From contig NZ_AP022583.1 in the NCBI RefSeq assembly GCF_010731635.1, positions 1,674,001-1,738,000 of the forward strand: a stretch of 64,000 bases of DNA. The letters run 5' to 3'. Positions 12,417 to 64,000 of this stretch are shown here, piece after piece; the first letter of the stretch is position 1, and each line of letters begins with the position of its first letter. A program made the translations under genes and the position numbers. The DNA is from Mycobacterium noviomagense (GTDB lineage Bacteria > Actinomycetota > Actinomycetes > Mycobacteriales > Mycobacteriaceae). The notes under the pieces are model-generated. The model saw only the letters and a program-made list of their open reading frames with translations, searched no databases and had not been told where the DNA came from.

Positions 12417-12521
12417 GCGATTCCCTTCGACAACATAGCGTTCGACTACCGATACTCAGGAAAGATCATACCGAGCGCGTCACGCACCAGTGCCCGCAGC
12501 AACGCGATGAACAGCGTCAGG

Positions 12522-18709: not shown

Positions 18710-18721
18710 CCCCGGCGACCG

Positions 18722-25855: not shown

Positions 25856-27496
25856 TCAGGTCGCAAAATGCACTTGGTTCACGTGGGCGGCGACCCGCAA
25901 GGCGTTGGCCGCGACCGTTAAGCCAGGATTCAAACCGGCGCTCGAAGGGAAGAACGAGGCGTCCACCACATAGAGGTTATCCACTTCATGTGCTCGGTTA
26001 TGCGCATCTAGCACACTGGTTTTCGGATCGGGACCGAAGCGGCACGTGCCGCAGACGTGGGCCAGAGCCTCGTTGTTGTCAGCGGCCCGCAGGGCGATTT
26101 TACGGAAAGGCTTCAACACCTCTTTCAACTGCCGCAAAAACACTGCCCGGCGCTCGATCTCACTGGCGTGAAAGCGGTACTGAATTCGCAGCCGCTGGCG
26201 CCCATCCGAGCCTGGACGCTCCGATGGCAGCACACGGTTGTCCAGATACGGCAGGTCTTCCATGATCAGTGCCAGCACCAGCCCACCGGTGTAGTAGCGC
26301 TCGTAGATCCGACGCGCAGCAGGGCTCATCAGCCGCAGCATCCTCGGCCGCAAGCCGGGGCGGTTGACCAACATCTCCATTGGTGCCATCGCACCGAATG
26401 ACTGGACGGTGCCGTATTTTTGGCCCTCGAAGAAATAGAAATCGTTGAGGCCGATCTCTTTGTTCTCGGCAGTGATCTTGTGGTCGGGTTGCGGCCAGAT
26501 TTCGACGAGGTCGATGAGGTGGCGCATCAGATTGCGTCCCACCAAGTCTGAGCTGTTGGCCAACCCGTGCGGCCAATCACCGGACCGGGAATTGAGCAAC
26601 AGTACCGGGGTGACCAACGCACCGGCGGCCAGCACCACCACCTTCGCGTTCAGCGTCAGCACGCCGGAATGGTGCTCGCAGATCACTTGCCGGACGTGGG
26701 TGCGGTCCGCATCTAGACGTACCGCCCGACATTGCGATAGCAGACTCGCTCCGTGCTCGGCAACGGCGGGGAGCACGCCATTGCGCGCGGCGTCGTTCTT
26801 GCAAGACCGATGACAGAGATAGCCTTGACATACAGCACAGCCATCGGTGTAATCGCAGGCCATCGGCAGGTGGTAGGGATGCAATCCGCGACCTGCCAAG
26901 TAGTCCACCAGCGGTTGGTTGTCTGCCGAAAACGGCGGCGCCGGAAGCAGATCGACCTCGGCCGCCTCAGGCCGAAGCGGATCGGGCTGACCACGGACCC
27001 CCAGCAGCTTTTCGGCCGCGACGTACCAGGGCCGCATCTGGTCGTACGTGACCGGCCAGGCATCCGGCACAGTGGAATCGCCGGGATCGCAGAAGTTTTC
27101 GCGGGGAGTGAAGTCGCGAACGAAGAATCGCTCGCAGACCATTCCGTAGAGCGCCGACGAGCCCCCCGTTCCGCTGCCGATAAACGGAACGAACCGCCGC
27201 GGAAAGCCCTTGCTGATGTCAACGATTTCGTCGGTCGAGCGCCCGGCCCGCGCCAAGGCGTCGTAGTACGCCTCTGCCGAACGGGCGGCCCTCGGCTCGG
27301 CGACTTCCGGCATCAGGGAGCGAATGGTTCCCGGCACCCCGGCCAGTGTCGATCGCCCTTTCTCGACGAACAGCACCCGACGGCCGGATCGGGCCAGCGA
27401 GTAGCCCATCATGCCGCCACCCATCCCCGTGCCCACGACAATCACGTCCCAGACAACGCGTTCGGCCTCGCGGGCATCCAGCTCGCCGTCAGCCAA
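25856..27496 (-). CDS. GMC-family FAD-dependent oxidoreductase, copy 1
   Basis: 546 residues starting at TTG (27496) with GAGGAG seven bases upstream; the start aligns with copy 2. The N-terminal FAD-binding motif is VVGTGMGGG near residue 22, with FVEKG as the acidic strand-2 end. GSGTGGSSALYG is the family flavin loop. The C-terminal HVCGTCRFG, VVDASFFPS and LNPGLTVAANALR match the GMC_oxred_C signature, with a His and Asn in the usual catalytic region. A Cys-rich stretch (CAVCQGYLCHRSCKND, about residue 230) is unusual and is kept in copy 2. The family includes choline, cholesterol and glucoside-3-dehydrogenases. Pairing with a Gfo/Idh gene suggests oxidation of a sugar hydroxyl, which is inference. 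Confidence 0.88.
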   Translation of the reverse strand: MADGELDAREAERVVWDVIVVGTGMGGGMMGYSLARSGRRVLFVEKGRSTLAGVPGTIRSLMPEVAEPRAARSAEAYYDALARAGRSTDEIVDISKGFPRRFVPFIGSGTGGSSALYGMVCERFFVRDFTPRENFCDPGDSTVPDAWPVTYDQMRPWYVAAEKLLGVRGQPDPLRPEAAEVDLLPAPPFSADNQPLVDYLAGRGLHPYHLPMACDYTDGCAVCQGYLCHRSCKNDAARNGVLPAVAEHGASLLSQCRAVRLDADRTHVRQVICEHHSGVLTLNAKVVVLAAGALVTPVLLLNSRSGDWPHGLANSSDLVGRNLMRHLIDLVEIWPQPDHKITAENKEIGLNDFYFFEGQKYGTVQSFGAMAPMEMLVNRPGLRPRMLRLMSPAARRIYERYYTGGLVLALIMEDLPYLDNRVLPSERPGSDGRQRLRIQYRFHASEIERRAVFLRQLKEVLKPFRKIALRAADNNEALAHVCGTCRFGPDPKTSVLDAHNRAHEVDNLYVVDASFFPSSAGLNPGLTVAANALRVAAHVNQVHFAT

Positions 27497-36185: not shown

Positions 36186-37826
36186 TCAGTTGGCGAAATG
36201 CAGCTGGTTGACGTATGCGGCTACCCTTAAGGCGTTCGCTGCGATCGTTAAGGCGGGATTCAAACCGGCGCTCGAAGGGAAGAACGAGCCGTCGACCACG
36301 TAGAGGTTGTCCACTTCGTGTGCCCGGTTATGTGCGTCCAACACACTGGTTTTCGGATCGGGACCGAAGCGGCACGTGCCGCAGACGTGGCCCAGGTTCT
36401 CGTTGCTTTTTGCGGCCCGCAGGGTGATTTTTCGGAAGGGCTTCAACACCTCTTTCAACTGACGCAGAAACACCGCTCGGCGCTCGATCTCACTGGCGTG
36501 AAAACGATACTGAATTCGCAGCCGCTGGCGCCCATCTGAGCTTGGCTTATCCCAAGGCAGCACACGATTGTCCAGATACGGCAGGTCTTCCATGATCAGT
36601 GCCAGCACCAGCCCACCGGTGAAAAACCGCTCATAAATCGGGCGCGCAGCAGGGCTCGTCAGGCGCAGCATCCTCGGTCCCCAGCCGGGGCGATTCGTTA
36701 ACACCTCCATGGGCGGCACAGGGCTCAACGACTGGACAGTGCCGTATTTTTGGCCCTCGAAGAAATAAAAGTCGTTGAGGCCGATCTCTTTGTTCTCGGC
36801 AGTGATCTTGTGGTCGGGTTGCGGCCAGATCTCGATCCAGTCAGTCAGATGGCGCATCAGGTTGCGTCCCACCAAGTCTGAGCCGTTGGCCAACCCGCGC
36901 GGCCAATCTCCCGACCGGGAATTCAGCAACAGTATCGGAGTGACCAACGCACCGGCGGCCAGCACCACCACCTTGGCCTTCAGCGCCAGCATGCCCGAGC
37001 GATGCTCGCAGATCACTTGCCGGAGGGTGTTGCGGTCCGCATCCAGGCCGACCGCCCGACATTCAGCCAGCAGGTGCGCTCCGTGCTCGGCAACGGCCGG
37101 CAGCACCCCGTTGCGGGCAGCGTCGTGTTTGCACGCCCGGTGGCAGATATAGCCCGCACAGGTGGCACACCCATCTGTGTAATCGCAGGCCATCGGTAGG
37201 CGGTAGGGATGCAATCCGCGACCCCTCAGATAATCAACCAGCGGCTGGTTGTCTGCCGAAAACGGCGGCGCCGGAAGCAGTTCGACGTCGGCCGCCTCGG
37301 GCCGAAGCGGATCGGGCTGGCCGCGAACCCCCAGCAGCTTTTCGGCCGCGGCGTACCAGGGCCGCATCTGGTCGTACGTGACCGGCCAGGCCTCCGGCAC
37401 GGTGGAATCGCCGGGATCGCGGAAGTTTTCGCGGGGAGTGAAGTCGCGAACAAAAAAACGCTCGCAGGCCATCCCGTAGAGGGCCGACGAGCCTCCCGTT
37501 CCGCTGCCGATAAACGGCACAAACCGCCGCGAGAAGCGACCGCTGATGTCTTCGATCTCGTCGGTCGAGCGCCCGGCCCGAGCCAACGCGTCGTAGTACG
37601 CATCTACCGAACGGCCCACCGCCGGCTCGGCCAGTTCTGGCAATGCAGAGCGAATGATTCCCGGTGACCCGGGCAGTGTCGATCGCCCTTTCTCGACGAA
37701 CAGCACCCGACGGCCGGATCGGGCCAGCGAGTAGCCCAGCATGCCGCCCCCCATCCCGGTGCCCACGACAATCACGTCCCAGACAACGCGTTCGGCCTCG
37801 CGGGCATCCAGCTCGCCGTTAGCCAA
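36186..37826 (-). CDS. GMC-family FAD-dependent oxidoreductase, copy 2
   Basis: 546 residues from the TTG at 37826, which has GGGAG seven bases upstream and aligns with copy 1; a TTG two codons earlier is possible. VVGTGMGGG, GSGTGGSSALYG, HVCGTCRFG, VVDGSFFPS and LNPALTIAANALR are all present. The Cys-rich stretch reads CATCAGYICHRACKHD, with the same Cys spacing as copy 1. Most of the sequence is nearly identical to copy 1, so the duplication is fairly recent. Probable role as for copy 1: FAD-dependent oxidation of a hydroxyl on a sugar or lipid intermediate, coupled with the neighbouring Gfo/Idh enzyme. Confidence 0.87.
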   Translation of the reverse strand: MANGELDAREAERVVWDVIVVGTGMGGGMLGYSLARSGRRVLFVEKGRSTLPGSPGIIRSALPELAEPAVGRSVDAYYDALARAGRSTDEIEDISGRFSRRFVPFIGSGTGGSSALYGMACERFFVRDFTPRENFRDPGDSTVPEAWPVTYDQMRPWYAAAEKLLGVRGQPDPLRPEAADVELLPAPPFSADNQPLVDYLRGRGLHPYRLPMACDYTDGCATCAGYICHRACKHDAARNGVLPAVAEHGAHLLAECRAVGLDADRNTLRQVICEHRSGMLALKAKVVVLAAGALVTPILLLNSRSGDWPRGLANGSDLVGRNLMRHLTDWIEIWPQPDHKITAENKEIGLNDFYFFEGQKYGTVQSLSPVPPMEVLTNRPGWGPRMLRLTSPAARPIYERFFTGGLVLALIMEDLPYLDNRVLPWDKPSSDGRQRLRIQYRFHASEIERRAVFLRQLKEVLKPFRKITLRAAKSNENLGHVCGTCRFGPDPKTSVLDAHNRAHEVDNLYVVDGSFFPSSAGLNPALTIAANALRVAAYVNQLHFAN

Positions 37827-37879
37827 AATCAAGCTCCCGGAGGTCGACTCGAAGCATTCCCCGATTTGGGCGAATCACG

Positions 37880-45639: not shown

Positions 45640-45870
45640 GTGACCATCAATCCGTTTGACGACGACAATGGCACCTTTTTCGTCTTGGTCAACGACGAAG
45701 AGCAGCACAGTCTATGGCCGACCTTCGCCGATGTGCCAGCCGGGTGGCGGGTAGTTTACGGGGAAGCGAACCGGGCTGCATGTCTGGATTACATCGAACA
45801 GAACTGGACCGATATTAGGCCGAAGAGTTTGCGAGACCGGCTCGTACACAGCCGGGCCTCTGACAGCTAA
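45640..45870 (+). CDS. MbtH-like protein, NRPS adenylation-domain partner
   Basis: 76 residues with a GTG start. It shows the family pattern [24 protein letters not shown], then [30 protein letters not shown] with the conserved Trp residues and the final RPKSLRDRL. MbtH-like proteins bind A domains and are needed for their folding or activity. It stops 22 bp before the NRPS start and shares its promoter, so the large NRPS is the obvious partner. It may also serve the other two NRPSs in the window, which have no MbtH gene beside them here. Confidence 0.97.
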
Positions 45871-45892: not shown

Positions 45893-48800
45893 ATGGAACT
45901 GGATGATAAGGCGCTTCCCCTTACGCGCGGACAGCTCGACATATGGCTGGCCCAGGAATCGGGCCACTTAGATGCAGACTGGCATATCGTCGCATTCGTC
46001 GTCATCAACGGCGCGATAAATCGGGATGTACTTGAACAAGCGATCCGGGACGTGGTCGCAGAGGCTGAACCGATCAGGGCCGCCATCTTTGAAGTGGGTG
46101 GTCAGGTCTTCCAGCGGCCGATTGACGACCCGGACGTTGAACTTCCCTTCTACGATCTCAGAGAAGTACAGAATCCCGTCCAGGAAGCCTATCGACGTGC
46201 CGAATCAATCCGGCGCACGCCGATGCCCCCAAGAGGCCCGCTATTCAAATTTGCGCTATTTCGCACGCGGTCGGATCAATTCTACTGGTTCTTGTGCGTC
46301 CATCACTTAGTAACCGATGGATTCGGAATTGCACTTTTTGCTAATCGGGTCGCCGCGGTCTACTCCGCGCTTGTTTCCGGCACGCCCGCGCCGCCTGCTT
46401 TTTTCGGCTCCCTGCGGGAAATGGTCGACCGCGAGGCCGAATACGAGACATCGAAGGATTACACCGAAGATTTAGCGTATTGGAATGCGAATCTTCCCCC
46501 GGATAGCGCGGCGCATTTTAGCCTTTCTCAATCGGCGGACACGCGTGATCCGAGTTCCGTTTCCGAAGCGGTTCAATTGGATCCCCAGGTCATCGACCGT
46601 GTCCATGAGTTGGCCAACGCATTGAATATGCGGCGGTCGTCGGTAATCACCGCGGCCTGTGCCCTGTTGACCCGGGGATGGTGCGCTGAAGACTCCCAAG
46701 TGGCGCTCAATTTCCCCGTCAGTCGGCGAGCGAGCCCGGAATCGGCGACCTTCCCGGGAATGGTTTCCGGCGTTGTACCACTGGTGTTGACCGTTTCCCC
46801 TGACGCTACGGTCGCGGATTTCTGTGGGCATGTCGACACCCGCATACGCGAAGCGGTGCAGCATCAGAGGTTCCCTGTACACGCCCTTGAGCGCAAAGTT
46901 CGGCCCGACCGGCCAAGGCTGGCACGCGAGCGAGTCGGTGTTAACTTCATCCCCTCGATAACGCTCCTGCCTTTCGCTGCTGCTCCTGCGTCCGGCGTGG
47001 TTACCGGTCTGGGCCGCGTAGACCACTTCGGGCTGTTTTTCTTAAGCGCGGACGGGCAGCTTTCTTTGAGCACAGCGGGCGCTGGTCAGCGGTTCGACAA
47101 TTTGGACGTCTCCGATTTAGCGCGACGGTTGCAGCAATTACTGGTGGCGATGACCGCGGATCCAGGGCGGTCATTGTCGTCGGTCGACCTGCTGGGCGAA
47201 GACGAGCACGCTCGGCTGTGGGCCTGGGGGAATCAGGCGGTGTTGAGCCGTCCCGCGACAGCGGCGTCAATCCCAGCGTTGTTCGCGCAGCAGGTGGCCC
47301 TCACGCCGGACGCCGTGGCGATCACCTGCGGCCAGCGTTCGTGGACCTACCTTGAGGTCGAGCAGGCCGCTAACCAGTGGGCGCACCTGCTGGCCGGCCA
47401 TGGAGTGGGCCCCGGCGAGTATGTGGCCCTGCTGTTGTCGCGGTCGGCTGAGGCAATCGTGGCAATCCTGGCGGTGCTGAAGACCGGAGCGGCGTATCTG
47501 CCGATCGACCCGGTGGTACCGCCAGGGCGGGTCGCATTCATGCTCGACGACGCCGCGCCTATAGCCGCAATCACCACCGCGGAGCTGCGCCCACGGCTGG
47601 ACGGCCACGACCTGCTGATCATCGACGTCGACAACCCCGGTGCTGCCACCGAACCCAGCACCGCTTTACCCGCGCCTGCTCCAGACGACATCGCCTACAT
47701 CATCTACACCTCGGGCACCACCGGTGTCCCCAAAGGGGTGGCGATCACCCACCAGAACGTGACTCAGCTGCTCGAATCACTCGATGCGGGGCTGACCGCG
47801 CCAGGGCCGCCAAAGGTGTCGACGCAGTGGCATTCGTTGGCATTCGACGCATCGGTTCGAGAGATCTGGGGTGCGCTTCTGCATGGCGGGCGGCTGGTCG
47901 TTGTGCCGGAGGAAGTCGCCGGCTCACCCGAAGACTTACACGCCTTGTTGGTCGGTGAACGCGTCGACGTGCTGACCCAGACGCCGTCTGCGGCCGGAGT
48001 GCTGTCTCAAGAGAGACTGGACTCGGTGGCGCTGGTGGTGGGCGGAGAGACCTGCCCCGCCGAGCTGGTGAACCGCTGGGCGCCGGGCCGGCTGATGCTC
48101 AACGCCTACGGCCCCACCGAGACCACGATCGACGTGTCGATCAGCGCGCCGCTGACACCGGGTTCGAGCCCGCCACCGATCGGTTCGCCGGTGGCTGGCG
48201 CAGCGTTGTTCGTGCTGGATGGGTGGTTGCGCCCGGTACCGACCGGGGCGGTCGGTGAGTTGTATGTCGCCGGTCGCGGCGTGGCGTACGGATACGTGCG
48301 CCGATCCGGGTTAACTGCTTCGCGGTTCGTCGCCTGCCCGTTCGGCGGCTCGGAAGTGTCAGGCGCACGCATGTATCGAACCGGGGATCTGGTGCGCTGG
48401 CGCGCCGACGGTCAGCTGGACTACCTGGGGCGCGCCGATGAACAGGTGAAGATACGCGGGTACCGCATCGAACTGGGCGAAATCCAGGCAGCACTGGCCG
48501 ACGTTGACGGGATAAATCAGGCGGTGGTGCTCGCTCGCGAGGACCGCCCCGGCGACAAACGCCTGGTCGGCTACGTCACCGGAAGCGCCGACCCGACCGA
48601 CATCCGCGCCGCGCTGGCTGAGCGGTTGCCCGAGTACATGATCCCGGCGGCGGTGGTCGTATTGGAGGCGTTGCCGTTGACGGTCAACGGCAAGCTCGAT
48701 AAACGGGCCCTGCCCGCGCCGGAATACATCCATGCCGACCGTTACCGCGCGCCGGCCAACGCCATCGAGGAGCTTTTGGCCGGCATCTTCGCCGAGGCAC

Positions 48801-51800
48801 TCGGCTTGGAGCGGGTCGGGGTCGACGACTCATTCTTCGAGCTCGGCGGCGACAGCATCTTGTCAATGCAGGTGGCGTCACGGGCGCGTGCCGCCGGCCT
48901 GATGTGTCGGCCCCGCGACATTTTCGTCGAGCAGACGGTGGCGCGGCTGGCCGCGGTTGCCGAGGTGGTCGACGGGGGTGACGAACCGGTCGATGGCGGT
49001 GTCGGCCCCGTGATTGCGACCCCGATCATGCGCTGGCTGCACGACGTGGAGGGCCCGAGGAAGCAGTTCAACCAGACGCTGCTTCTGCAGGCGCCCGCTG
49101 GGGTTACCGAGGCCGATGTGGCGGTAGTGCTGCAAGCGGTGGTGGATCGGCATCCCATGCTGCGGGCCCGTGTCCAGGACGACGGCGCCGGCGGCTGGAC
49201 GTTGCAGGTGCCAAAGGTCGGATCAATAGACGTCCGCAGGTCGGTGCAAGCGGTGGACGCGCTGTCTACCGAGGCGCTGGCCAGCACGCGGTCGCAGCTC
49301 GACCCGGCCGCCGGTGTGATGTTCAGCGGGTTGTGGGTGACCTCCACCAGCCAGCTGATGCTCGTCATTCACCATTTGGTGGTTGATGGGGTGTCGTGGC
49401 GAATCCTGTTGGAAGACTTCAACTCTGCCTGGTCCCAACATCAGAGCGGGCAGCCGCTGGTGTTGCCGGCGACCGGGACGTCGTTTGCTCGGTGGGCGCA
49501 GCTGCTAAGTGAGTACGCACGCCGACCAGACGTGGTGGAGCAGGCTGGCGCGTGGCGGCAGCTGGCGGCGGCGCCGGCCTCGCTGCCCGCGGTGCGGCCG
49601 GAGGTGGACACCTATGCCAGCGCCGGGTTGTTGTCGGCGGCGCTGGACGCCGAGACCACTCGGATGCTGTTGGGTGCGGTGCCGGCGGCGTTCCATGCCG
49701 GAATCCACGACATTTTGTTGATCGGGTTCGCTTTGGCGGTTTCCGAGTTTGTGGGCACCCGCGGACCGGTCGGGATCGACGTCGAAGGCCACGGGCGCCA
49801 CGAGGAATTGGCCGACGGCCTTGACCTTTCGCGCACGGTGGGCTGGTTCACGACCAAATACCCGGTGTCGTTGACGGTCGGCGGGCTGGATTGGGCGCAG
49901 GTGACCGCCGGTGAGCCGGGGTTGGGGACCCTGATCAAGGACGTCAAGGAGCAGCTGCGCGCTCTTCCGGATCCGCTGACCTACGGCGTGTTGCGCTATT
50001 TGAACCCGGAGGTGGACCTTGACGGATCTGATCCGCCAATCGGCTTCAACTATCTAGGGCGCCTCGGCGGCACGGCCGGCCACGCGTCAGATCAGCCGTG
50101 GCGAATCAGCGAGGAGGGCTGGGCGCTCACCAGCGCCGCCGCGGCGATACCCATGCCGTTGGCGCACACGCTAGAGCTCAACGCCGGAACCCTCGACACC
50201 GACGCCGGCCCACAGCTGCACGCGACGTGGACGTGGGCCGCCTCAGCGCTGGGCGACCCAGAGGTCAGTCGGCTGAGCGAGTTGTGGTTTGACGCCTTGC
50301 GCGGTATCTGCGCGCACGTGCGAGCCGGTGGCGGCGGGCTGACGGCGTCGGATATCGCGCCGGCCCGGCTCAGCCAGCAGCAGATCGACGAGCTGTGCCG
50401 GCACTACCGGATAGCTGACATCTTGCCGTTGACGCCACTGCAGCAGGGGCTGCTGTTTCACGTCAGCAGCGGCCAGGACGGCGGCGACGACGTGTACGCG
50501 GTGCAACTGGATCTCACCCTCACCGGCCCGCTTGACCCGCACCGGCTGCAACATGCGGTGCACACCGTCGTCGCCCGGCATCCGAACCTGGTGGCTCGAT
50601 TCTGCGACCAATTCGACGAACCGGTGCAGGTCATTCCGGCTGATCCCGTCGTGCCCTGGCGCTACGCCGAGTTCAACCGTGACGGCGTCGATGTCGAGAA
50701 GCAGATCCAGCAGCTGTGTGCCGTCGAGCGTGACGCCGTCTACGAGCTCGCCGACCAACCAGCTTTTCGGGCGGCGCTGATCCGCATCGCTGCAGACCGG
50801 CACCGGTTCGTGCTGACCAACCACCACATCGTGCTCGACGGCTGGTCACTGCCGATCCTGCTGGGAGAAATCTTCGCCGCGTACTACGGCGAGCGCCTAC
50901 CCGCGCCCGTGCCGTATCGCCGGTTTGTCAGCTGGCTGGCCGATCGCGACCTCGATGCCGCCGGTGCGGCCTGGCGTGAGGTGCTCGCCGGTTTTGACAC
51001 CCCGACACTGGTCGGCCCGCCGGATCGGTTAGGGCTGGGACGGCGAGGCGTTGAATCGTTCCGGGTGCCGGAGCAGACAACCCGCGCCATCAGCGAGCTG
51101 GCGCGATCGCGCCACACCACCCTCAACACCGTGCTGCAGGCTGCTTATGCGCAGCTGCTGATGTCGCTGACGGGCCGCCAGGATGTGGTGTTCGGAACCA
51201 CGGTCTCGGGCCGGCCCGCCGAACTCGGCGGCGCCGACTCAATCGTGGGGCTGTTGATCAACACGGTGCCGGTACGGGCAACCGTCACTCCCACAACCAC
51301 CACCGCCGAACTGCTCGATCAACTGCAAAGCACGCACAACGCCACGCTCGAGCACCAGCACCTAGCGCTACGCGACCTTCACCGCCTCACCGGTCATGAC
51401 CGACTGTTCGACACGGTTTTCGTGTACGAGAACTATCCGCTCGACACGGCCGCGCTGCTCGCAGGCCGAGAATGGGCGGTTACCGAGTTCAGCGTCCGTG
51501 AATACAACCACTACCCGCTTGCGCTCGTAGCGATGCCGGGCGTCGAACTAGAGCTTCGCGTCGAATTCGACAGCGACGTTTTCGACGCCGACGCCGTCGA
51601 GGCGCTGGTCGACCGGTTGCAGGGAGTGTTGGCCGCCATGACGGCCGACCCCGCACGCCGACTTTCCTTGACGGATCTCCTCAATGAGCGTGAGCGCGCC
51701 CGCCTCGGCCAGTGGGGCAATTGGGCGGCGTTGACGCAGCCGACGGCCGCGGCGGCGTCGATTCCGCAGGTCTTCGCTAGCCAGGTCGCGCGTGCTCCGG

Positions 51801-54800
51801 AGGCCGTGGCGGTGAGTTGCCGAGGCCGCACCATGACCTATCGCGATGTTGACGAGGCGTCCAACCGATTGGCGCACCTGCTGGCCGGCCATGGAGTCGG
51901 CCCGGGTGAGTATGTGGCGCTGCTGTTTCCCCGGTCCGCCGAGGCGATCGTCGCGATCCTGGCGGTGCTGAAAACCGGGGCGGCGTACCTACCGATCGAC
52001 CCGGCACACCCGCAGACTCGCATCGAGTTCATGCTTGCCGACGCCGCGCCGATTGCCGCGATCACCGCTACCGAGCTAGCCGACCGGCTGGACGGGTTCG
52101 ATACGGTGACCATCGATCCCGACGACCCGGCCCTCGACCGCCAACCTGCTACGCCGCTACCGGCTCCGGCGCCCGACGACATCGCCTACATCATCTACAC
52201 GTCCGGCACCACCGGGGTTCCGAAAGGGGTGTCGGTCACCCACCACAATGTGATCCGGCTGTTCGATTCGCTGGAAGTCGGCATAGAAGTGGGACCGGAA
52301 CAAGTCTGGTCGCAGTGTCACTCCTACGCGTTTGACTACTCGGTGTGGGAAATCTGGGGTGCCCTGCTGCATGGCGGGCGGCTGCTGGTGGTGCCCGAAG
52401 AGGTGACCGCTTCCCCGGACGACTTCCACGCTTTGTTAGTTGCTGAGCGGGTCAGCGTCTTAAGCCAAACCCCTTCGGCGGTCGGGGTGCTCTCCCCCGA
52501 GGGGTTGGAGTCAACGGCACTGGTGGTTTCCGCGGAGGCGTGTCCGGCCGATGTGGTGGATCGGTGGGCACCCGGGCGGGTGGTGATCAACGGGTGCGGC
52601 CCAACCGAGACCACGGTCTACGCATCGCTCAGTAGACCGCTGGCAGCGGGATCAGGAGAACCGCCGATCGGTTCGCCGGCGCCGGGAGCGGCGTTGTTTG
52701 TGCTCGACGGGTGGCTGCGCCCGCTGCCGGCCGGGGTGGTCGGTGAGTTGTATGTCGCTGGCGCCGGCGTTGGCGCCGGTTATGTGCGCCGGCCGGGGTT
52801 GACCGCGGCGCGGTTTGTGGCGTGTCCGTTCGCCGACGGTGGGGTGCGGATGTATCGGACCGGGGATTTGGTGCGCTGGCGCGCCGACGGTCAGCTGGAT
52901 TATCTGGGCCGTGCCGATGAGCAGGTCAAGATCCGCGGGTATCGCATCGAACTCGGCGAAATCCAGGCCGCCCTCGCGAGTTTGGACGGTGTGGAGCAGG
53001 CGGTGGTGATCGCCCGTGAGGACCGCCCCGGCGACAAACGCCTGGTGGGTTACATCACCGGTACCGCCGACCCGGCCCACCTCCGCTACCAGCTGGTGGA
53101 GCGGCTACCTGCCTACATGGTCCCGGCGGCCGTGGTGGTGGTAGACGCGCTGCCGCTGACGGTCAACGGCAAATTGGACAGGCGTGCCTTGCCGGCACCC
53201 GACTACACCGAGACTGGCGGGCATCGGCCTCCGGCCAACGCGATCGAGGAGATCCTGGCCGGCGTCTACGCCCAGGTACTGGGTGTGGAGCGGGTCGGCG
53301 TCGACGACTCCTTCTTCGAGCTTGGCGGCGACAGCATTTCGGCGATGCGCCTCACCGCGGCGATCAACACCGGCCTGGACGCCAACCTTGCGGTGCGCGC
53401 CGTGTTCGAGGCGCCCACGGTGGCCCAGCTGGCGCTCCGGATCGGTGCTGGAGGTGCGGGTCGCCTCCAGCCGTTGACGTCGGCCGAACGGCCGCCGGTG
53501 ATTCCGTTGTCGTTTGCCCAGCAGCGGTTGTGGTTCCTGGACCAGCTGCAGGGACCGTCACCGATCTACAACATCGCAGCGGCGCTGCGGCTGCACGGGC
53601 CCCTTGACGCCGACGCCCTGCAGGCAGCGCTGGTCGACGTGGTGGGCCGCCACGAAAGCCTGCGCACCGTGATCGCCACGGTCGACGGAACACCCCAACA
53701 GGTAGTGCTTCCGGCACAGCAGGCCGAGTTCGGGTGGGACCTTGTCGATGCCACCGAATGGTCGGCAACTCAGCTGGAGGAGGCACTCGACACCGCGGCC
53801 CGTCACACTTTCGGTCTGGCGACTGACATCCCGTTGCATACACGGCTTTTCAAGCGCGCTGATAACGAACACATCCTGGTGCTCGTGGTCCACCACATTG
53901 CAGCGGACGGCTGGTCGCTCAGACCGCTGGCGCGTGACCTGAGTGTCGCTTATGCCAGCCGCCACCAGGGGCGGGCACCTACCTGGGCGCCGCTGCCGGT
54001 GCAGTACGCCGATTACACGCTCTGGCAGCACAGGCAACTGGGCGACGCCGACGATCCCAGCAGCCAAATCGCGGCGCAGCTGGAGTTTTGGGAGCAGGCG
54101 CTCGCCGGCATGCCGCAACGCCTAGATCTTCCTACCGATCGGCCCTATCCCGCGGTCGCCGACCTGCGCGGCGCGCGGCTGAGTGTGGAGTGGCCGGCCG
54201 AGCTGCAGCAGCAGGTGGCGCGGGTGGCGCGTGAACACAACGCCACCAACTTCATGGTGATGCAAACCGCCCTGGCGGTACTACTTTCCAAGTTGAGCGC
54301 CAGCAGCGACATAGCCGTCGGGTTCCCGATCGCCGGTCGCCGTGACCCCGTCCTCGATGACCTTGTCGGGTTTTTCGTCAATACCTTGGTACTGCGCGTC
54401 GACCTGAGCGGCAATCCCAGCGTCGCCGACCTACTGGCGCAAGTGCGCACCCGCAGCCTGGCCGCCTACGAGCACCAAGACGTGCCGTTCGAAGTGCTCG
54501 TCGAGCGGCTCAACCCCGTCCGAAGCCTGGCCCATCACCCGTTGATCCAGGTGGGGTTGGCCTGGCAGAACAACGCCCCCGCCGAACTCGCCTTGGGCGA
54601 CGTACATGTCAGCCGGCTGCCGGTGGACACCCACACGGCCCGCATGGACCTGGCTATCTTTCTTGAGGAGCACTGGGACGCAGGCGGGCAGCCGGCCGGC
54701 ATCAGTGGGACGGTGGAGTTCCGCACCGATGTCTTCGACGCCCCCAGCATCACAACACTGATCGAGCGGTTGCAGCGGGTATTGGCGGCTATCACTGCCG

Positions 54801-57800
54801 ATCCCAGCCGGCCGTTGTCGGCGATCGATGTACTCGACGAGCCTGAGCAGGCCCGGCTGGATGAGTGGGGTAACCGGGCGGTGCTGACGCAGCCGCCGCC
54901 GACGCGGGTGTCGATTCCGGAGCTGTTCGCCACGCACGTGGCGCATGCTCCGGAAGCAGTAGCGCTGACATGCGATGACGTTTCGTGGACCTACCGCGAG
55001 CTGGACGAAGTATCCAACCGGTTGGCGCACTTGCTAACTGCACATGGGGCGGGTCCGAGAAATTGTGTGGCGCTGCTGTTGCCGCGCTCCGCTGAGGCCG
55101 TCGTGGCGATGCTCGCCGTTCTGAAGACCGGGGCGGCCTATCTGCCGATCGACCTAGCACACCCGGTGGCACGTGTCGGGTTCATGCTCGGCGACGCCGC
55201 CCCGATCGCCGCGCTCACCACCACGGGCTTGCGGTCGCGATTGGACGGGCACGAGCTACCGGTCGTCGAGGTCGACGACCCCCGCATCCCGACCTATCCT
55301 GCCACCGCATTGCCGGCACCGGCCCCGGAGGACATCGCCTACCTCATCTACACCTCGGGCACTACTGGCGTTCCCAAAGGTGTAGCGATCAGCCACCACA
55401 ACGTCACCCAACTGCTGGCGTCGCTAGATGCGGGCTTGCCGGCAGCAGGGGTATGGGCACACAGTCACTCCGCGGCCTTCGACGTCTCGGTATGGGAGAT
55501 TTTCGGAGCGCTGCTGCGGGGCGGACGTCTGGTGGTGGTGCCCGAGTCGGTCGCAGCGTCGCCCGAAGACTTCCACGACCTGCTGGCTGCTGAACACGTC
55601 AGTGTGCTGACCCAAACCCCTTCTGCCGCAAAGGTTCTCTCTCCCGAGGGGCTGGAAGCGGCGACATTGGTGACAGTTGGTGAGGCCTGTCCGGCCGAGG
55701 TGGTGGAGCGGTGGGCACCCGGGCGGGTGATGATCAACGCCTACGGTCCGACCGAGACGACGATGTGCGTAGCGATAAGCACGCCGTTGACGCCCGGCTC
55801 GGTTGTCCCGATCGGTTCGCCGGTGCCAGGGGCGGCGTTGTTTGTGCTCGATGACTGGTTGCGTCCAGTGCCCGCCGGTGTGATCGGAGAGTTGTATGTG
55901 GCCGGCGCCGGGCTGGCGTATGGGTACGTGCGCCGGGCGGGGTTGACCGCATCGCGGTTTGTGGCGTGCCCCTTCGGGAAGCTTGGGGCCCGGATGTATC
56001 GCACCGGCGATCTGGTGCGCTGGCGCCCCGATGGGCAGCTGGACTATCTGGGCCGCGCCGATGAGCAGGTCAAGATCCGCGGCTATCGCATCGAACTCGG
56101 CGAAATACAAGCAGCGCTGGCTGCTTTGGATGGGGTCCAGCAGGCGGCGGTGGTTGCCCGCGAGGACCGCCCCGGCGACAAGCGCCTGGTGGGCTATTTC
56201 ACCGGCTCCGCCGACCCGGCCCAGATCCGCGCACAGCTGAGCGAGCGGCTCCCTCGCTACATGGTGCCGGCCGCAGTAGTGCAGCTCGACGCCTTGCCCT
56301 TGACAGTCAACGGCAAGCTCGACATTCGGGCCCTGCCAGCGCCTGAATACCAGCATGCCGATCGGTATCGCGCGCCGAGCAACGCGGTCGAGGAAATCCT
56401 GGTTGGCATATACGCCGACGTGCTGGGCTTGGAGCGGGTCGGGGTCGACGACTCCTTCTTCGAGTTGGGTGGGGATTCCCTGTCAGCCATGCGCGTGATG
56501 GCCGCAGTCAACGCCAGCCTCGATGCCCATGTCGCGGTCCGGACCCTGTTTGAGGCGCCCACGGTGGCCCAGCTGGCACCGCGGATTGGGGTGGGAGGCG
56601 CAGGACGGCTTGGGCCGTTGACACCGGTGGAGCGGCCGGCGGTGGTGCCCTTGTCGTTCGCCCAGCAGCGATTGTGGTTTATCGACCAGTTGCAGGGGCC
56701 CTCACCGATCTACAACATGGCGGTGGCGTTGCGGCTGCGCGGGCGCCTTGATTCCGACGCACTGCGGGCGGCGCTGACTGATGTGGTGGAGCGCCATGAA
56801 AGCCTGCGGACTTTGTTCGTAGCGGTCGACGGGATACCGCAGCAGGTGGTGGTTCCTGTGGAGCAGGCTGACTTCGGCTGGGAGGTGATCGATGCCAGTG
56901 CCTGGTCGGAAACCCAGCTAGACAAGGGTATCCACGCCACGGTGCGGCACACTTTTGACCTCGCCAGCGAGATCCCTTTGCGGGCAAGGCTTTTCCGAAT
57001 TGCAGACGAAGAGCACGTGGCGGTGGCCGCAGTGCATCATATTGCCGCGGACGGTTGGTCGATCACCCCGCTGGTGCGCGACTTGGGAATGGCCTACGCC
57101 AGCCGGTGTACGGGAATGGCCCCCGAATGGGCGCCATTGCCAGTGCAATACGTCGATTACACGCTGTGGCAGCGAGCTCAGTTCGGTGATCTGGCCGATA
57201 GTGAGAGCCCGATCGCGGCCCAGCTGGCGTACTGGGAACATGCGCTGGCCGGGATGCCCGAACGCCTTGAGTTGCCTACCGATCGGCCTTATCCGGCGGT
57301 CGCGGATCACCGTGGCGCCCGGGTGACCGTTGACTGGCCGGCTGAGCTACAACAGCAGATCGACCATCTGGCCCGCGAGCACAACGCCACTAGCTTCATG
57401 GTGATGCAGGCTGCCCTGGCGATACTGCTTTCCAAGGTCAGCGCCAGCAGCGACATAGCCGTTGGGTTCCCCATCGCCGGGCGCCGCGATTCCGCCCTCG
57501 ATGAGCTCGTCGGATTTTTCGTCAACACCTTGGTGCTGCGCGTTGATCTAACCGGGAACCTCAGTGTGGCAGAGCTTCTCGAGCAGGTACGGGCGCGCGC
57601 CCTGGCCGCCTATGAGCACCAAGACGTCCCCTTTGAGTTGCTGGTAGAGCGGCTGAAACCCACCCGAAGTTTGGCTCATTCCCCGCTGGTGCAGGTGGTG
57701 TTGGGCTGGCAGAACTTCGCATGGGCCGGCGACCCTGTAGCCACGGTGCCGCTGGGTCACCTAGAGGTCACGGGGATGCCGGTTGACACGCGCACCGCTC

Positions 57801-60800
57801 GTATGGATCTCACGTTTGTCCTGGCCGAACAATGGACAGAAACCGGCGAGCCCGCCGGGATCGGCGGGCTGGTGGAGTTTCGCACCGATGTCTTCGACGC
57901 GGCCAGCATCGAGACGTTGATTGAGCGGTTCAGGCGGTTGGTAGCGACCATCACCGCCGACCCGGCTCGGCGGTTGTCGTCGATTGATGTGCTCGATGCC
58001 GCCGACCATGCCCGGTTGGAGGGTTGGGCGAACCGGGCAGTGTTGACTCAGCCGGTGACTGCAGCGGTGTCGATTCCGGAGGTGTTTGCCGCCCGGGTGG
58101 CGCAGGCACCTGAGGCGGTGGCGGTCAGCTTCCAGGGCCGCGCCATGACTTACCGCGAGGTTGATGCGGCGTCTAACCGGTTGGCGCATCTGCTGGTGGA
58201 CCACGGCGTGGGCCCGGGGCAGCGGGTGGCGGTGTTGGTGCCGCGTTCGGGCGAGGCGGTTGTGGCGATTTTGGGGGTGCTCAAGGCGGGGGCGGCGTAT
58301 GTGCCGTTGGATCCGGCGCACCCGGCGGCGCGGATCGAGTTTCTGCTTGATGATGCCGCCCCGATCGCGGCGATCACGACGGCGGACCTGCGCCCGCGGC
58401 TGGACGGCCACAACCTGCTGGTGATCGACATCGACGACCCCGCCATCCGCACCCAGCTCGCGACGGGGCTGGCGGCGCCGGCCCCGGAGGGTATTGCGTA
58501 TTTGATCTACACCTCGGGCACCACCGGTGTGCCCAAAGGCGTGGCGGTGCCGCATGGCAACGTGACGCGGTTGTTGGAGACGTTGGCCGCCGATATCGGG
58601 GGCGCCGGGGTGTGGTCGCAGTGTCATTCGTTGGCGTTCGATTTTTCGGTGTGGGAGATCTTTGGTGCGCTGCTGGGTGGGGGGCGGCTGGTGGTGGTGC
58701 CCGACGCGGTGGTGCGCGCCCCGGAGGAGTTGCACGCGCTGCTGGTGGCCGAGCGGGTCAGTGTGTTGAGCCAGACCCCGTCGGCGTTTTATGCGCTGCA
58801 GTCCGCCGACGCGCTGGCCCCCGAGCTCGGCCAACGGCTGGCGCTTGAGGCGGTGGTGTTTGGTGGGGAGGCGTTGGAGCCGCAGCGGCTGCGCCCGTGG
58901 CTGGGCAACCACCCGGATGCGCCGCGGTTGATCAACATGTATGGCATCACCGAGACCACGGTGCACGCCTCCTACCGGCCGATTACCGCCGGCGATGTGG
59001 AGGCGATGGCCAGCCCGATCGGGGTGCCGTTGGCGCATCTGGGGTTTTTCGTGCTGGATGGCTGGTTGCGTCCGGTGCCCTCGGGGGTGGTGGGCGAGTT
59101 GTATGTGGCCGGCGCCGGGGTGGCGTATGGGTATGTGGGCCGGGCGGGGTTGACCGCGGCGCGGTTTGTGGCGTGTCCGTTCGCCGACACTGGGGTGCGG
59201 ATGTATCGGACCGGGGATTTGGTGCGCTGGCGCGCCGATGGGCAGTTGGATTATCTGGGCCGTGCCGATGAGCAGGTCAAGATCCGCGGCTACCGGATCG
59301 AACTCGGCGAGATCCAGGCCGCCCTCGCGAGTGTGGACGGTGTGGAGCAGGCGGTGGTGATCGCCCGTGAGGACCGCCCCGGCGACAAACGCCTGGTCGG
59401 CTACATCACCGGTACCGCCGACCCGGCCCAAGCGCGCGCCCAGCTGGCCGAGCGGTTGCCGGGCTATATGGTGCCCGCGGCGATCGTGGCCCTGGAGGCG
59501 TTGCCGTTGACGGTCAACGGCAAGCTGGACACCCGCGCCCTGCCGGCCCCCGAGTACGCCGACGCGGCGGGGTATCGCGCCCCCGGTGATGCGGTGGAGC
59601 AGATTTTGGCCGACATTTTCGCCGAGGTGCTGGGCTTGGAGCGGGTGGGGGTGGACGACTCGTTCTTCGAGTTGGGTGGGGACAGCATTTTGTCGATGCA
59701 GGTGGTGGCCCGGGCCCGGGCGGCGGGGGTGGTGTGTCGGCCCCGTGATGTGTTCGTCGAGCAGACGGTGGCCCGGCTGGCCCGGGTGGCCGCGGTGGCC
59801 GACGCCGAAACCGGCGTGGTCGATGAGGGTGTGGGCCGGGTGCCGGCGACCCCGATCATGCGCTGGCTGGCCGGTTTTGACGGCGCCATCGAGCAGTTCA
59901 ACCAGACCATGGTGGTGCAGGCCCCGCCCGGGGTGACCCAAACCGATGTGGTGGTGCTGGTGCAGGCGTTGCTGGATCGCCACGCGATGCTGCGCGCGCG
60001 CCTCGAACACCACGACACGGCAGGCGGGTGGGTGCTGGTGGTGCCCGAGCCCGGATCGGTCGACGCCGCCGAGCGGGTGCACACCGTGGAAGCGCTGTCG
60101 GATGAGGCGTTGGTGGCGGCCCGCTCGGGGTTGGATCCGGCGGCCGGGGTGATGCTGCGCGCGCTGTGGGTGGCTGACACCGGGCGGCTGGTGGTGCTGA
60201 TTCACCATTTGGCCGTGGATGGGGTGTCGTGGCGGATCCTGCTCGAGGACCTCAACGTGGCCTGGGCCCAGCACCGGGCCGGCCAGCCGATCGCGTTGGC
60301 GGCGCCGGGGACCTCGTTTGCCCGCTGGGCCGCCCTGCTGCACGAGCACGCCCAGCGCCCCGAGGTCACCGCCACCGCCCAGACGTGGCGGCAGGTGGCC
60401 GGCGCCCCGGCCGTGCTGCCCGCGCCCGACCCGAGCGTGGATACCTACGCCACGGCCGGGCATTCCTCGGCGCAACTGGATGTGGAGAGCACCCGGATGC
60501 TGCTCGGTGAGGTGCCCGCGGCGTTTCACACCGGCATTGGCGACATCCTGGTGATCGCCTTCGGCATCGCGATCACCGAGTTTGTGGGGGACCCCACCGG
60601 CCCGGTGGGTGTTGATGTGGAGGGTCATGGCCGCCACGAGGAGCAGTTGGGTGCGGAGCTGGATCTGTCCCGCACGGTGGGCTGGTTCACCGCCAAATAC
60701 CCGGTGGCGTTGCGGGTCGCTGGCCTGGACTGGGCGCAGGTGGTCGCCGGTGGGCCCGGGTTGGGGGCGCTGATCAAAGACGCCAAAGAACAACTGCGCG

Positions 60801-62905
60801 CCCTGCCCGAGCCGCTGAGCTACGGGCTGCTGCGCTACCTCAACCCCGACATCGACCTCGACGACCCAGATCCGCCGATCGGGTTCAACTACCTAGGCCG
60901 CCTCGGCGGCGCGTCGGGCGAAGCTTCTAGCGAGCTGTGGCGGATCAGGACGGAAGGGTTGTCGGCGATCGGTGCCACAGCCGCGGCTATCCCGATGGCG
61001 TTGGCGCACACCCTCGAGCTCAACGCCGCCACCGTCGACACCGAGACTGGCCCGGCGCTACAAGCCGGCTGGAGTTGGGCGCCCTCGGTGCTCGACGACA
61101 CCCAGATCACCCGGCTCAGCGAGTTGTGGTTTGAGGCGTTGCGCGGCATCTGCGCGCACGTGCGCGCCGGCGGCGGCGGGCTGACCCCGTCTGACATCGC
61201 CCCCGCCCACCTGAGCCAGCAGCAGCTCGACGAGCTGTGTCGGCACTATCGGGTCGCTGATGTGTTGCCGCTGACCCCGCTGCAGCAGGGCCTGCTGTTT
61301 CACGCCAGAGCCGCCCAGGCCAGCGGCGACGATGTGTATGCCGTGCAGCTGGCCATCACCATCACCGGCCCCCTCGACCCGCACCGGCTGCGCGAGGCCC
61401 TGCACACCGTCATCACCCGCCACCCCAACCTGGTGGCCCGCTTCTGCGAAGAGTTCGACGAGCCGGTGCAAATCATCCCCGCCCAACCCCAAACACCATG
61501 GCGCTACGTCGAACTCGACGGCGTCGACATCGACGAACAGATAAACCAACTCTGTGCCGCCGAACGCGCCGCGGTATGTGAGATGGCTGACCAGCCGGCT
61601 TTTCGGGCCGCGCTCATCCGCACGGCACCCGACCGGCACCGGTTCGTGCTTACCAACCATCACATCGTGCTCGACGGCTGGTCCATGCCCATCCTGATGC
61701 GCGAAATATTCGCCGCGTACTACGGCCAGCGATTGACTGCGCCCGTGCCGTATCGCCGCTTCATCACCTGGCTGGCTGATCGTGACTTCGATGCCGCCCG
61801 CGCGGCGTGGCGCCATGTGCTCGACGGCTTCGACACCCCCACCCTCGTCGGACCGGCGGATCGCTTAGGGCTAGGACGGCGAGGTGTCGAATCGTTCCGG
61901 CTTCCCGAGGAGACCACGCAAGCCGTTGTGGAGTTGGCGCGCTCGCAGCACACCACTGTCAGCACCGTACTGCAGGCCGCTTTCGCCCAACTGCTGATGT
62001 GGCTGACCGGTCAGCACGATGTCGCCTTCGGCACCGTGGTCTCGGGCCGACCCGCCGACTTGGATGGCGCCGACTCGATATTGGGGCTGTTGATCAACAC
62101 CGTGCCGGTGCGAGCACGCATCACCCCCACCACCAGCACCGCCGACCTACTCGACCAGCTGCAGAACACCCACGGTCGCACACTCGAACACGAGCACTTG
62201 GCGCTGCGCGAAATCCATCGCATCGCCGATCAAGAGCAGTTGTTCGACACTGTCTTCGTATACGAGAACTATCCGATTGACCCCGGCCAGATATCGAGCG
62301 TCGACGGCTTGACGATCAGCGACCTCGCCAACCGCGACTGCTACCACTACCCGCTTACGATCCAAGCCGTCCCGGGCAGCGAAATCGGCCTTCGTGTCCA
62401 GTTCCGCACGGACGTTTTCGACGCGGAAAGCATCGAGGCGCTGATTGACCGGTTCCAGCGGATGTTGGTGACCATGACCGCCGACCCGACGCGACCGCTG
62501 ACGACGATGGACCTGCTCGATGAGGCTGAGTACGCCCAGCTGGATGGATTCGGCAATCAGGTACCGACCAAGCCTGCCGATACTGCGATGCCAGAACCGG
62601 GAGACCACGACACAGGCGGTCGCTACCACGGCCCGGCCAACCTAGTCGAGCAAATCTTGGCCGACATCTACGCCCAGGTCTTGGGCATAGAACGCGTCGG
62701 GGTCCATGAGTCGTTCTTTGACTTGGGCGGAGATTCACTGTCTGCCATGCGCGCGATCGCCGCGATAAACACAGCCCTGGATATTCGACTCCCGGTGCCT
62801 GCATTATTCGACGCGCCGTCCGTGAGAAGCCTGAGCCAGCAATTGCACCGGCATGTCGGCGCGGTGGAAGAATCTCCCGCCTCGAGCCGAGCCAACGATC
62901 TGTAG
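45893..62905 (+). CDS. Large NRPS: Cstart-A-PCP-E-C-A-PCP-C-A-PCP-C-A-PCP-E-C-PCP (5670 aa)
   Basis: Approximate residues: starter C 5-420 (HHLVTDG near 137), A1 458-960, PCP1 (Ser988), E1 1043-1480, C2 1510-1930, A2 1955-2450, PCP2 about 2478, C3 2536-2970, A3 3006-3500, PCP3 about 3525, C4 3583-4030, A4 4060-4570, PCP4 about 4595, E2 4650-5095, C5 5124-5540, PCP5 (Ser5615). The N-terminal C domain with no upstream carrier suggests lipid initiation, as in GPL synthetases. PCP1 and PCP4 have the GGDSILSMQ form typical before E domains. Pocket residues read by eye: A1 D-A-R-T-V-G-A-I-D, A2 D-Y-W-S-V-S-G-V-Y, A3 D-V-W-T-V-V-A-M-C (somewhat Phe-like), A4 D-F-W-S-V-G-M-V-H (Thr). The last module has no A domain and the protein has no TE or reductase, so release needs a partner. 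Confidence 0.95.
52800..53088 (+). repeat. A-domain tract nearly identical to 59152-59432
   Basis: The 3' third of A2 (from [13 protein letters not shown] to [10 protein letters not shown]) repeats in A4 with only scattered base differences, although the two A domains differ in their specificity-determining parts. It looks like intragenic gene conversion. Confidence 0.65.
62500..62640 (+). other. In-frame adenylation-domain deletion scar in the terminal module
   Basis: C5 ends normally with the linker [17 protein letters not shown], which in every other module leads into about 500 residues of A domain. Here about 35 residues later the PCP linker begins. The intervening [23 protein letters not shown] resembles the extreme end of an A domain plus linker (ALPAPEY...DRYRAPAN elsewhere). 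So the A-domain body is missing between its first and last few residues. Confidence 0.7.
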
Positions 62906-62951: not shown

Positions 62952-63623
62952 TTACCAGATACCTGGCACCAGGCGATAGCGAACTTCTTGGGCATACTCG
63001 CGGTAACCGGCCAAGTCGTCCTTGAGCAGCTTCTCTTCGTCGCGGATGCGGAAGGCTAACCCGCTGACGCCAGGCACGACGAAGACGAGTCCCCAGTAGG
63101 AGTCCAGCGCCAGCGGTATGCCGACCATCATGATGACATTGCCGGCATACATCGGGTGACGCACAAGCCCATACAAACCGGTGGAGACGAGCTTCTGGCC
63201 GGACTCGACCTGCACGGTCGCGGCCGCGTGGCTGTTTTGGAGCACCACCAGCATCGCTACGCCCAGCCCAACTGCGACCAGGACATCGCCAACCAAAGAG
63301 ATGGCCGTCGGTACCGGCGACCAGCCAAAGCGATGGTCAAGCGCGCTGACCACGAACATCGCCGCCAGCGACAGCCAAAGGGCCGCCATTGCAACCTTTT
63401 GCGCCGTTCTGGTCTCCGCTTTCGGTCCCCCACGCATCCGCCGCTCAAGCACCGCGGGATTCACTCGCAGCAAGTAAGCGCTGAAGATCCGCGTCGAGAT
63501 TGCCAAGACGACCAACACCCATGCTTGCCAGTAAGCGAACGTGCCGGCAGGCAAAAACAGCAGCAAGCCCAACAGGACAAGGAAACCAAGCCCGGACACC
63601 AACATTTTAGGAATGGTCTTCAC
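62952..63623 (-). CDS. ICMT/PEMT-type membrane methyltransferase, copy 1
   Basis: 223 residues with about five hydrophobic segments, starting LVSGLGFLVLLGLLLFLPAG. The C-terminal signature is TGLYGLVRHPMYAGN (RHPMY) followed by FRIRDEEKLLKDDLAGYREYAQEVRYRLVPG. This is the isoprenylcysteine carboxyl methyltransferase/phospholipid methyltransferase superfamily, which binds SAM at the membrane. It is convergent with the large NRPS (46 bp). In this setting methyl-ester formation on a peptide carboxylate or methylation of a lipid is possible, but bacterial members have varied or unknown substrates. Confidence 0.82.
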   Translation of the reverse strand: MKTIPKMLVSGLGFLVLLGLLLFLPAGTFAYWQAWVLVVLAISTRIFSAYLLRVNPAVLERRMRGGPKAETRTAQKVAMAALWLSLAAMFVVSALDHRFGWSPVPTAISLVGDVLVAVGLGVAMLVVLQNSHAAATVQVESGQKLVSTGLYGLVRHPMYAGNVIMMVGIPLALDSYWGLVFVVPGVSGLAFRIRDEEKLLKDDLAGYREYAQEVRYRLVPGIW

Positions 63624-63675: not shown

Positions 63676-64000
63676 CTACCACACACTCGGCACCAGCCGA
63701 TAACGCACCTTCTCTGTGTATTCGCGGTATCCGTCCAACTCGTCTCGCAATAGCTTTTCTTCGTCGCGGATACGCAGAGCGAGTATCAGGAGGCAAGGGA
63801 TGACGAAGACGAGTCCCCAGTAGGAACCGAGCGCGAGTGGGACGCCGACCATCGCGATCGCATTGCCGGTGTACATAGGGTGGCGCACCAATTCATATAG
63901 CCCGGTTGAGGCGAGCTTCTGGCCGGTCTCCACGCGGACGACTCCGGCCGCGTAGCTGTTCTGAACGAAAACCAGCACCGCTACACCGAGTCCGACGGCT
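63676..64000 (-). CDS. ICMT/PEMT-type membrane methyltransferase, copy 2 (5' end outside window)
   Basis: The frame is open to the right edge, so only the C-terminal 107 codons are visible. They read TGLYELVRHPMYTGN and RIRDEEKLLRDELDGYREYTEKVRYRLVPSVW, closely matching copy 1, and the edge codons AVGLGVAVLVFVQNS align with AVGLGVAMLVVLQNS there. It lies 52 bp upstream of copy 1 in the same direction, so the two are a tandem duplication and probably one operon. Confidence 0.8.
   Translation of the reverse strand, partial: AVGLGVAVLVFVQNSYAAGVVRVETGQKLASTGLYELVRHPMYTGNAIAMVGVPLALGSYWGLVFVIPCLLILALRIRDEEKLLRDELDGYREYTEKVRYRLVPSVW

Follow-up and report, generated by a model that had tools for sequence, protein, structure and literature searches.

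How an NRPS releases its chain when its last module has neither an A domain nor a thioesterase (TE) is the question raised by a 5670-residue synthetase of Mycobacterium noviomagense, encoded toward the end of the 64,000-nucleotide stretch analysed here (contig NZ_AP022583.1, positions 1,674,001 to 1,738,000; hereafter the window). Domains were called with profiles derived from the domains of the window itself, and Pfam searches of both protein halves (seven Condensation, four AMP-binding and five PP-binding stretches) agreed with the order obtained (Table 1). The profiles and Pfam bore out the first-pass annotation in its central claim of a terminal C domain (HHIVLDG) and carrier (GGDS) joined without an A domain, the linker measuring ca. 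38 residues, whereas the A domains of the remaining modules span ca. 480-500 residues. That annotation had counted five other C-A-PCP modules, and the synthetase has four that contain an A domain; it was right about the C and PCP of the last module and had passed over the E domain (residues 4635-5093) just before this C domain. The frame stops 22 residues beyond the PCP5 match with no TE or reductase, and with no A domain either, the end departs from the generic C-A-T-TE/R termination module. The terminal C domain was assigned to the DCL type, as an E domain precedes it, HHxxxDG is present and its best score was with the DCL profile, which was made from the two DCL domains of the window, the terminal one among them.

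Table 1. Features at the synthetase end and beside it (window positions)
Feature	Position	Strand	Basis or remark
NRPS, 5670 aa, Cs-A-T-E-DCL-A-T-LCL-A-T-LCL-A-T-E-DCL-T	45893..62905	+	window-derived domain profiles and Pfam
MbtH-like gene, 76 aa, directly upstream of NRPS	45640..45870	+	name from sequence reading
Last A domain, residues 4060-4557, Thr-type code DFWSVGMVH(K)	58070..59563	+	motif anchors
E domain preceding terminal module, residues 4635-5093	59795..61171	+	
Terminal DCL-type C domain, residues 5121-5575, HHIVLDG at residue 5256 (61658-61678)	61253..62497	+	
Signature D5482 (62336-62338) and Y5484 (62342-62344)	62336..62344	+	present in 81/86 terminal DCL
Signature Q5503	62399..62401	+	Glu there in 35/37 A-followed DCL and 59/60 sampled LCL
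Linker replacing A domain, 38 residues	62498..62611	+	C-A border recognised; A-PCP border below significance
Terminal carrier PCP5, residues 5574-5648, GGDS, Ser5615 (62735-62737)	62612..62836	+	
ICMT-family methyltransferase next door (METHYLTRANSFERASE), RHPMYAG...RIRDEE	62952..63623	-	PF04140, PF04191, PDB 4a2n
Second ICMT-family gene, running beyond window end	63679..64000	-	69.8% identical to first over 199 residues

The linker had been described as a scar keeping both borders of an excised A domain. Untrimmed border profiles (C-A from 78 examples, A-PCP from 193) gave the window linker 38.4 bits for the C-A border and 18.8 bits for the A-PCP border, the 99th percentile of shuffled sequences being 3.9 in both cases; the two profiles extended into the flanking C and PCP domains, which the protein has, and the scores were inflated for that reason. 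With linker-only profiles, the C-A border still scored 16.2 bits (shuffled 99th percentile 2.2, maximum 14.4 in 1740 shuffles), and the A-PCP border dropped to -2.6 bits against a 99th percentile of 2.7, with a profile only about a dozen residues long. The description held after trimming for the first border and failed for the second, where the likeness rests on resemblance by eye. By retaining the C-A border, the linker suggested that an A domain was there once, and the terminal module probably had one formerly. Revision of the border test leaves our weighing of the explanations unchanged, as that weighing rests on the comparative evidence.

The last 235 residues were searched against 248 genomes of the genus, and a single match spanning the C domain into the PCP was required. 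At least 84 places besides the window gave such a match (47-64% identity); as a rule 11 candidates were scored per genome, so the counts are a lower bound. Stretches were taken for all 84 places (40 of 11.5-19.8 kb, 44 of 3.5-11.6 kb) and for two more, L141 (genome G049) and L140 (genome G301). Synthetases ending in DCL-PCP were thus found at no fewer than 85 other loci in the genus (74 other genomes) and at L140 in another genus of the same family, 87 loci with the window, and at least 75 of the 248 genus genomes, its own included, carry an A-less terminal end. The 84 places had been selected for a C domain running straight to a PCP, and the absence of an A domain from them is therefore no finding.

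The rest of the design recurred with little variation. In all 87 loci the reading frame stops 4-43 residues past the PCP match and the carrier Ser is kept (GGDS in 80, GGNS in six, GGTS in L140); an E domain precedes the terminal DCL in 85, the remaining two being cut by contig ends, and HHxxxDG is intact in the terminal C domain of 85. The preceding A code, read by motif anchors on what we take to be PheA numbering, is of Thr type in 62 of the 71 readable loci (five of the others DTW/DSW, two DGKS..VAY, two DFWS..AIY; 16 loci unreadable). L140 has an E-DCL-T end at 29% identity and, among the matches listed, was the only place outside the genus to span C and PCP (family sample of 301 genomes, 29 of them in the genus); its NRPS stops 7.3 kb short of where the stretch ends. 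Mycobacterial matches among the best 20 of 486 from a plasmid search were partial only, and some Streptomyces plasmids matched at 28-29% across 88-91% of the query.

The first-pass annotation had proposed loss by recombination, with sequencing or assembly collapse as an alternative. Excision of the A domain locally or recently in this strain would fit the clarity of the C-A border, which at 16.2 bits stands out more in the window than in most loci (linker-only profiles placed 17 of the 87 above the shuffled 99th percentile for C-A, and six for A-PCP). However, the same architecture is present in 86 other loci, most of the terminal DCL domains fall in one clade and the linker evolves fast, so that local or recent excision and an assembly artefact were both ruled out, their joint probability being close to nil. 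An equally short linker in distant species, which the annotation had named as telling against its own reading, was found (85 genus loci and L140). No A-bearing copy was found in the terminal DCL clade, which is weak evidence since 84 places were preselected for a straight C-to-PCP match. On these comparisons, the A-less E-DCL-PCP end is an old design common to many mycobacteria and no local accident.

The terminal DCL domains also carry residues of their own. Of the 86 terminal DCL domains, 81 combine D5482, Y5484 and Q5503, and the complete set occurs in none of 37 DCL domains followed by an A domain. In the latter, position 5482 is Glu in 36, position 5484 Asn or Thr in 35, and position 5503 Glu in 35 (Gln in one, Arg in another). 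Sampled LCL domains (n = 60) have Glu5503 in 59 and differ at 5482 and 5484. A tree of the 86 terminal and 37 A-followed domains gave as its best split 80 terminal domains plus one A-followed (support 0.961), with a pure terminal clade of 78 (support 0.893); L045 and L136-L140 fell outside, the triad being present in L045 and absent from L136-L140. A smaller tree placed 81 of the 86 terminal and one of 26 internal domains (L045_int0) in the clade (support 0.973). When 11 DCL domains from TE modules were added, L045_int0 and L045_term left the split and the first DCL of the genome's own upstream NRPS entered it; the terminal clade is imperfect, as its membership shifts between the two trees. 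The internal and terminal DCL domains of L045 swap places between the trees, as if sequence had been exchanged.

Position 5503 may lie where a condensation domain receives its acceptor. According to the available text on the FscG structure, M2917, S2919, Q2921, P2941 and E2950 could line the acceptor pocket, docking to a mutant placed the acceptor amine on E2950, and the pocket residues showed no correlation with substrate (PMC8097023). Going by a strand motif, our guess is that residue 5503 corresponds to E2950; a 28-residue search for the FscG counterpart of the signature residues returned no match.

The carriers pointed to where this end came from. In a tree of 316 distinct carriers, the 87 terminal ones and 30 that precede a TE formed one clade with two of 199 others (support 0.956); with a 66-residue carrier core and 315 sequences, the clade held 86 terminal, 29 TE-preceding and two others (support 0.804). 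As the terminal carrier groups with TE-preceding carriers, the TE was probably lost too. Of 40 TE-ended synthetases taken from the genus, 11 end E-DCL-A-T-TE, and one in the window's own genome does so across two overlapping frames. The simplest history to which the sequences point is descent of the terminal module from an E-DCL-A-T-TE end through loss of both A and TE; L136-L140 would be either separate cases or earlier ones. The ends at L136-L139 are E-DCL-T without the D/Y/Q signature, have non-Thr codes and no ICMT gene within ca. 4 kb, and occur as two A-less ends per genome in G112 and G215; they possibly reflect an independent loss of the A domain.

A module that had lost A and TE could be an inactive remnant, with the chain leaving PCP4 by hydrolysis or through a trans enzyme while DCL and PCP fade. 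Over 17 close pairs picked by eye, median pN/pS was lowest in the preceding carrier (0.045); the terminal DCL gave 0.154, the terminal carrier 0.184, the E domain 0.193 and the linker 0.512. The loose linker, and purifying selection on PCP5 ca. four times weaker than on the carrier before it, would suit decay; the DCL value, which is like that of the E domain, the new signature residues in 81/86 and the carrier Ser in 87/87 argue against it, and we hold this explanation to be very improbable. By these measures selection maintains the terminal module, with PCP5 held less tightly than PCP4 and the linker far looser.

A clue to the fate of the chain came from the gene next door (62952-63623). Its protein scored 36.3 bits with PF04140 (cut-off 24) and higher, 43.4 bits, with PF04191 PEMT (cut-off 25), matched PDB 4a2n at E 3.1e-7 and stayed below the isoprenylcysteine O-methyltransferase equivalog NF040696 (52.2 bits, cut-off 160). 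In 71 of the 87 loci, the window included, an ICMT homologue lies no more than 2.5 kb from the synthetase stop (59 convergent on the opposite strand, 12 on the same strand); of the 70 signature loci with ICMT, 47 have it within 100 b, and the pattern RHPxYxG...R(I/V)xxEE is present in 64 of the 71. Beside the TE-ended synthetases taken from the genus, the gene was found in two of 40 cases (38 with at least 1300 b downstream). Within a limit of 800 b, the proportions were 54/85 A-less ends and 2/30 TE-ended loci (Fisher p 2.6e-8), a comparison between related and hence non-independent genomes in which the 30 loci are an earlier set overlapping with the 40 and the TE flanks are shorter, down to 183 b. 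ICMT homologues are present in 220 of the 248 genomes, so the link is one of place and not of presence. Among the titles and abstracts listed in literature searches, none dealt with this terminal module or with ICMT beside a mycobacterial NRPS.

No ICMT gene was seen within 2.5 kb in 16 of the 87 loci (L045, L053, L057, L058, L062, L065, L071, L101, L102, L112, L115 and L136-L140, with 2369 b seen at L101 and 367 b at L115). The closest relatives of the window's cluster, L058, L062, L065 and L071, are all among these, and further flanks from three of the four genomes (L142-L145) contained no ICMT either. In its place these four loci carry a homologue of the window gene at 18722-20131, which has no Pfam match and is related to an acyltransferase-like protein. 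In two of the genomes with these loci, G185 and G121, an ICMT gene adjoins a TE-ended synthetase (L177 and L196), and the x-x-Phe-Thr synthetase that each genome also has is without a nearby ICMT.

Our leading explanation, to which we give a little under an even chance, is that E-DCL-PCP followed by a stop serves mycobacterial lipopeptide and glycopeptidolipid (GPL) synthetases as a conserved termination module without an A domain, releasing a chain that ends in D-allo-Thr and is later methyl-esterified. The peptide would be complete after module 4 as acyl-X-X-Phe-like-Thr, its last residue being epimerised to D-allo-Thr by the E domain, and the terminal DCL would accept only the epimerised chain from PCP4. 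As this DCL has no A-supplied acceptor, attack would be left to water, to the PCP5 thiol or to a substrate brought in trans; by off-loading the chain onto water directly, or by way of the free PCP5 thiol, the DCL would yield the D-allo-Thr acid. The linked methyltransferase suggests a free carboxylate turned methyl ester, and the ICMT-family enzyme would thus produce a lipopeptide methyl ester, while the E-DCL pair would stand in for a thioesterase and act as a stereochemical gate. We infer the release step itself from what can be read in the sequences, namely the domain order, how widely it occurs, the common signature residues, the selection acting on DCL and PCP, and the nearby methyltransferase gene in most loci. 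The release platform, one of the options in the first-pass annotation, is kept in this form.

The more specific version, that a DCL lacking the acceptor Glu replaces the thioesterase, frees only epimerised chains and, with the linked ICMT, produces a D-allo-threonine methyl ester, the device being reused in dozens of unlike synthetases, is advanced more tentatively still. Release is favoured by the stop after DCL-PCP in 87/87 loci, the Thr-type codes, ICMT in 71/87, the change from Glu to Gln5503 in 81/86, the lack of a common stand-alone A gene, the kinship with TE-type carriers, the IvoA precedent and the four-residue Ser-GPL of M. xenopi. Against it, a C domain serving release alone could do without a carrier, yet PCP5 retains its Ser and shows purifying selection; the intact HHxxxDG permits normal condensation; and 16/87 loci have no ICMT within 2.5 kb. 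Retention of PCP5 with its Ser is the weakest step of the release explanation, and would be explained better by transfer to PCP5 or by trans loading than by release onto water.

Release by C-like domains has been described elsewhere. The crocacin synthetase reportedly ends in a hydrolytic release domain similar to C domains (Muller 2014), a C-like terminal domain acting by hydrolysis that we liken to the mycobacterial one by title. The mycobacterial end shares with IvoA- and crocacin-type release a terminal C domain with no A domain following, and differs from it in the carrier behind (PCP5). According to the available text of two reports, the terminal DCL-clade C domain of IvoA, which follows an E domain, releases a D-amino acid as the free acid (D-Trp, PMC12751119; D-Tyr, PMC11546977). 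In that single-module synthetase of Aspergillus nidulans, C likewise stands straight after E with no A or TE behind it, and we liken the two by description; IvoA differs in being fungal and having one module, and the available text names no carrier after the C domain and mentions no linked methyltransferase. Fungal CT macrocyclisation ends are alike in that a terminal C-family domain releases the chain in place of a TE (available text of PMC11546977). They cyclise with a terminal amine, whereas a linear methyl ester is proposed for the mycobacterial module.

The intact catalytic motifs are equally what a working elongation module would show. PCP5 could be loaded in trans by a separate A domain, or by the Thr-type A domain of module 4 acting twice; the DCL would then add a bond, and an unlinked hydrolase or TE would free the peptide. 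Both DCL and PCP keep their motifs and are under selection, as expected of such a module. A-less modules charged in trans are known from syringomycin and viomycin. For WS9326A, the available text likewise describes C-T modules lacking A that are charged by trans A domains (PMC7539972). Such systems have identified A partners, and none is conserved near the 87 loci: no common stand-alone A gene was found, A-only open reading frames occurring in 3/87 stretches, which mostly cover 4-5 kb downstream, most flanks being short, so that a partner could be elsewhere. The window's own C-A-T-TE gene (14738-18709) was rejected as the partner, as it found just generic 29-34% NRPS matches in the stretches of four related clusters. 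The change from Glu to Gln at 5503 would be unexpected with an amine acceptor, and the M. xenopi core has four residues in the available text of PMC7261415; we consider trans loading, the chief rival to release, unlikely, at about one chance in four.

Alternatively, the chain might be moved to PCP5 by thiol exchange with no residue added, and PCP5 would then dock glycosyl-, acyl- or methyltransferases or a trans TE. This would account for the kept Ser and for the likeness to TE-docking carriers, and the window offers five EryCIII-like glycosyltransferase genes as well as several that encode methyltransferases. However, the neighbouring genes vary between loci while the module is constant, and we know of no C domains whose main reaction is thiol exchange onto a carrier; we regard this explanation as improbable.

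Among known products, the Ser-GPL of M. xenopi is the GPL nearest in predicted order. Relative to its Ser-Ser-Phe-alloThr core, window modules 3 and 4 fit Phe-like and Thr-E, and the A codes of modules 1 and 2 are not Ser-like. The M. xenopi lipid reportedly ends as a methyl ester. It has four residues with D-allo-Thr last, according to the available text (PMC7261415); window module 1 has an E domain, whereas the review, as available, gives L-Ser for this lipid. The GL8P system of M. abscessus (MAB_4690c/4691c), likewise a mycobacterial glycolipopeptide with E domains and an MbtH-type gene, has a TE end according to the available part of PMC11978893, and classical GPL, also a mycobacterial glycolipopeptide, has a core ending in alaninol (available part of PMC5996870).

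The core observation of a C-PCP end without an A domain is true, and it is better explained as a variant way of ending NRPS chains that is maintained across the genus, whose reaction we infer. By this explanation, one testable rule would cover TE-less chain ending in the mycobacterial synthetases of surface lipopeptides, a large group that has for the most part not been studied, and C-terminal chemistry (D-allo-Thr, methyl ester) could be predicted from the gene. Tools that count the C-PCP pair as a module, or as truncated, would mispredict peptide length.

The surroundings of the synthetase are those of a GPL cluster. The window holds NRPS, GPL-type glycosyltransferase, methyltransferase, acyltransferase-like and SfLAP genes, which we take to be the set defining a mycobacterial GPL cluster, with homologues in L142-L145; the acyltransferase-like label is weak (38.4 bits, cut-off 310). 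The 76-aa MbtH-like protein had no NCBIfam match and has homologues at 84-88% in L142 and L084. The C-A-T-TE gene at 14738-18709 encodes 1323 aa and is distant in sequence from the other modules, with 29-36% identity to NRPS modules in the compared stretches. A second, TE-ended synthetase system starts upstream and reaches into the window (1-9692, with L083-L084), having its own MbtH-like gene (L084 10383-10610). At the contig ends of the genome's own assembly (G000; L086 and L088), nearly the whole of the final 17.8 kb is a repeat of bases 2440-20000 (99.5% identity); the overlap of ca. 17.5 kb has 51 gap openings and two mismatches, with NRPS frames in pieces there, and seems to be a circular overlap that was left untrimmed and carries indel errors. 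Within the window, the GMC oxidoreductase genes at 25856-27496 and 36186-37832 are 86% identical and stand beside duplicated glycosyltransferase, GFO/IDH and acyltransferase-like genes; from these sequences, the GPL cluster looks segmentally duplicated.
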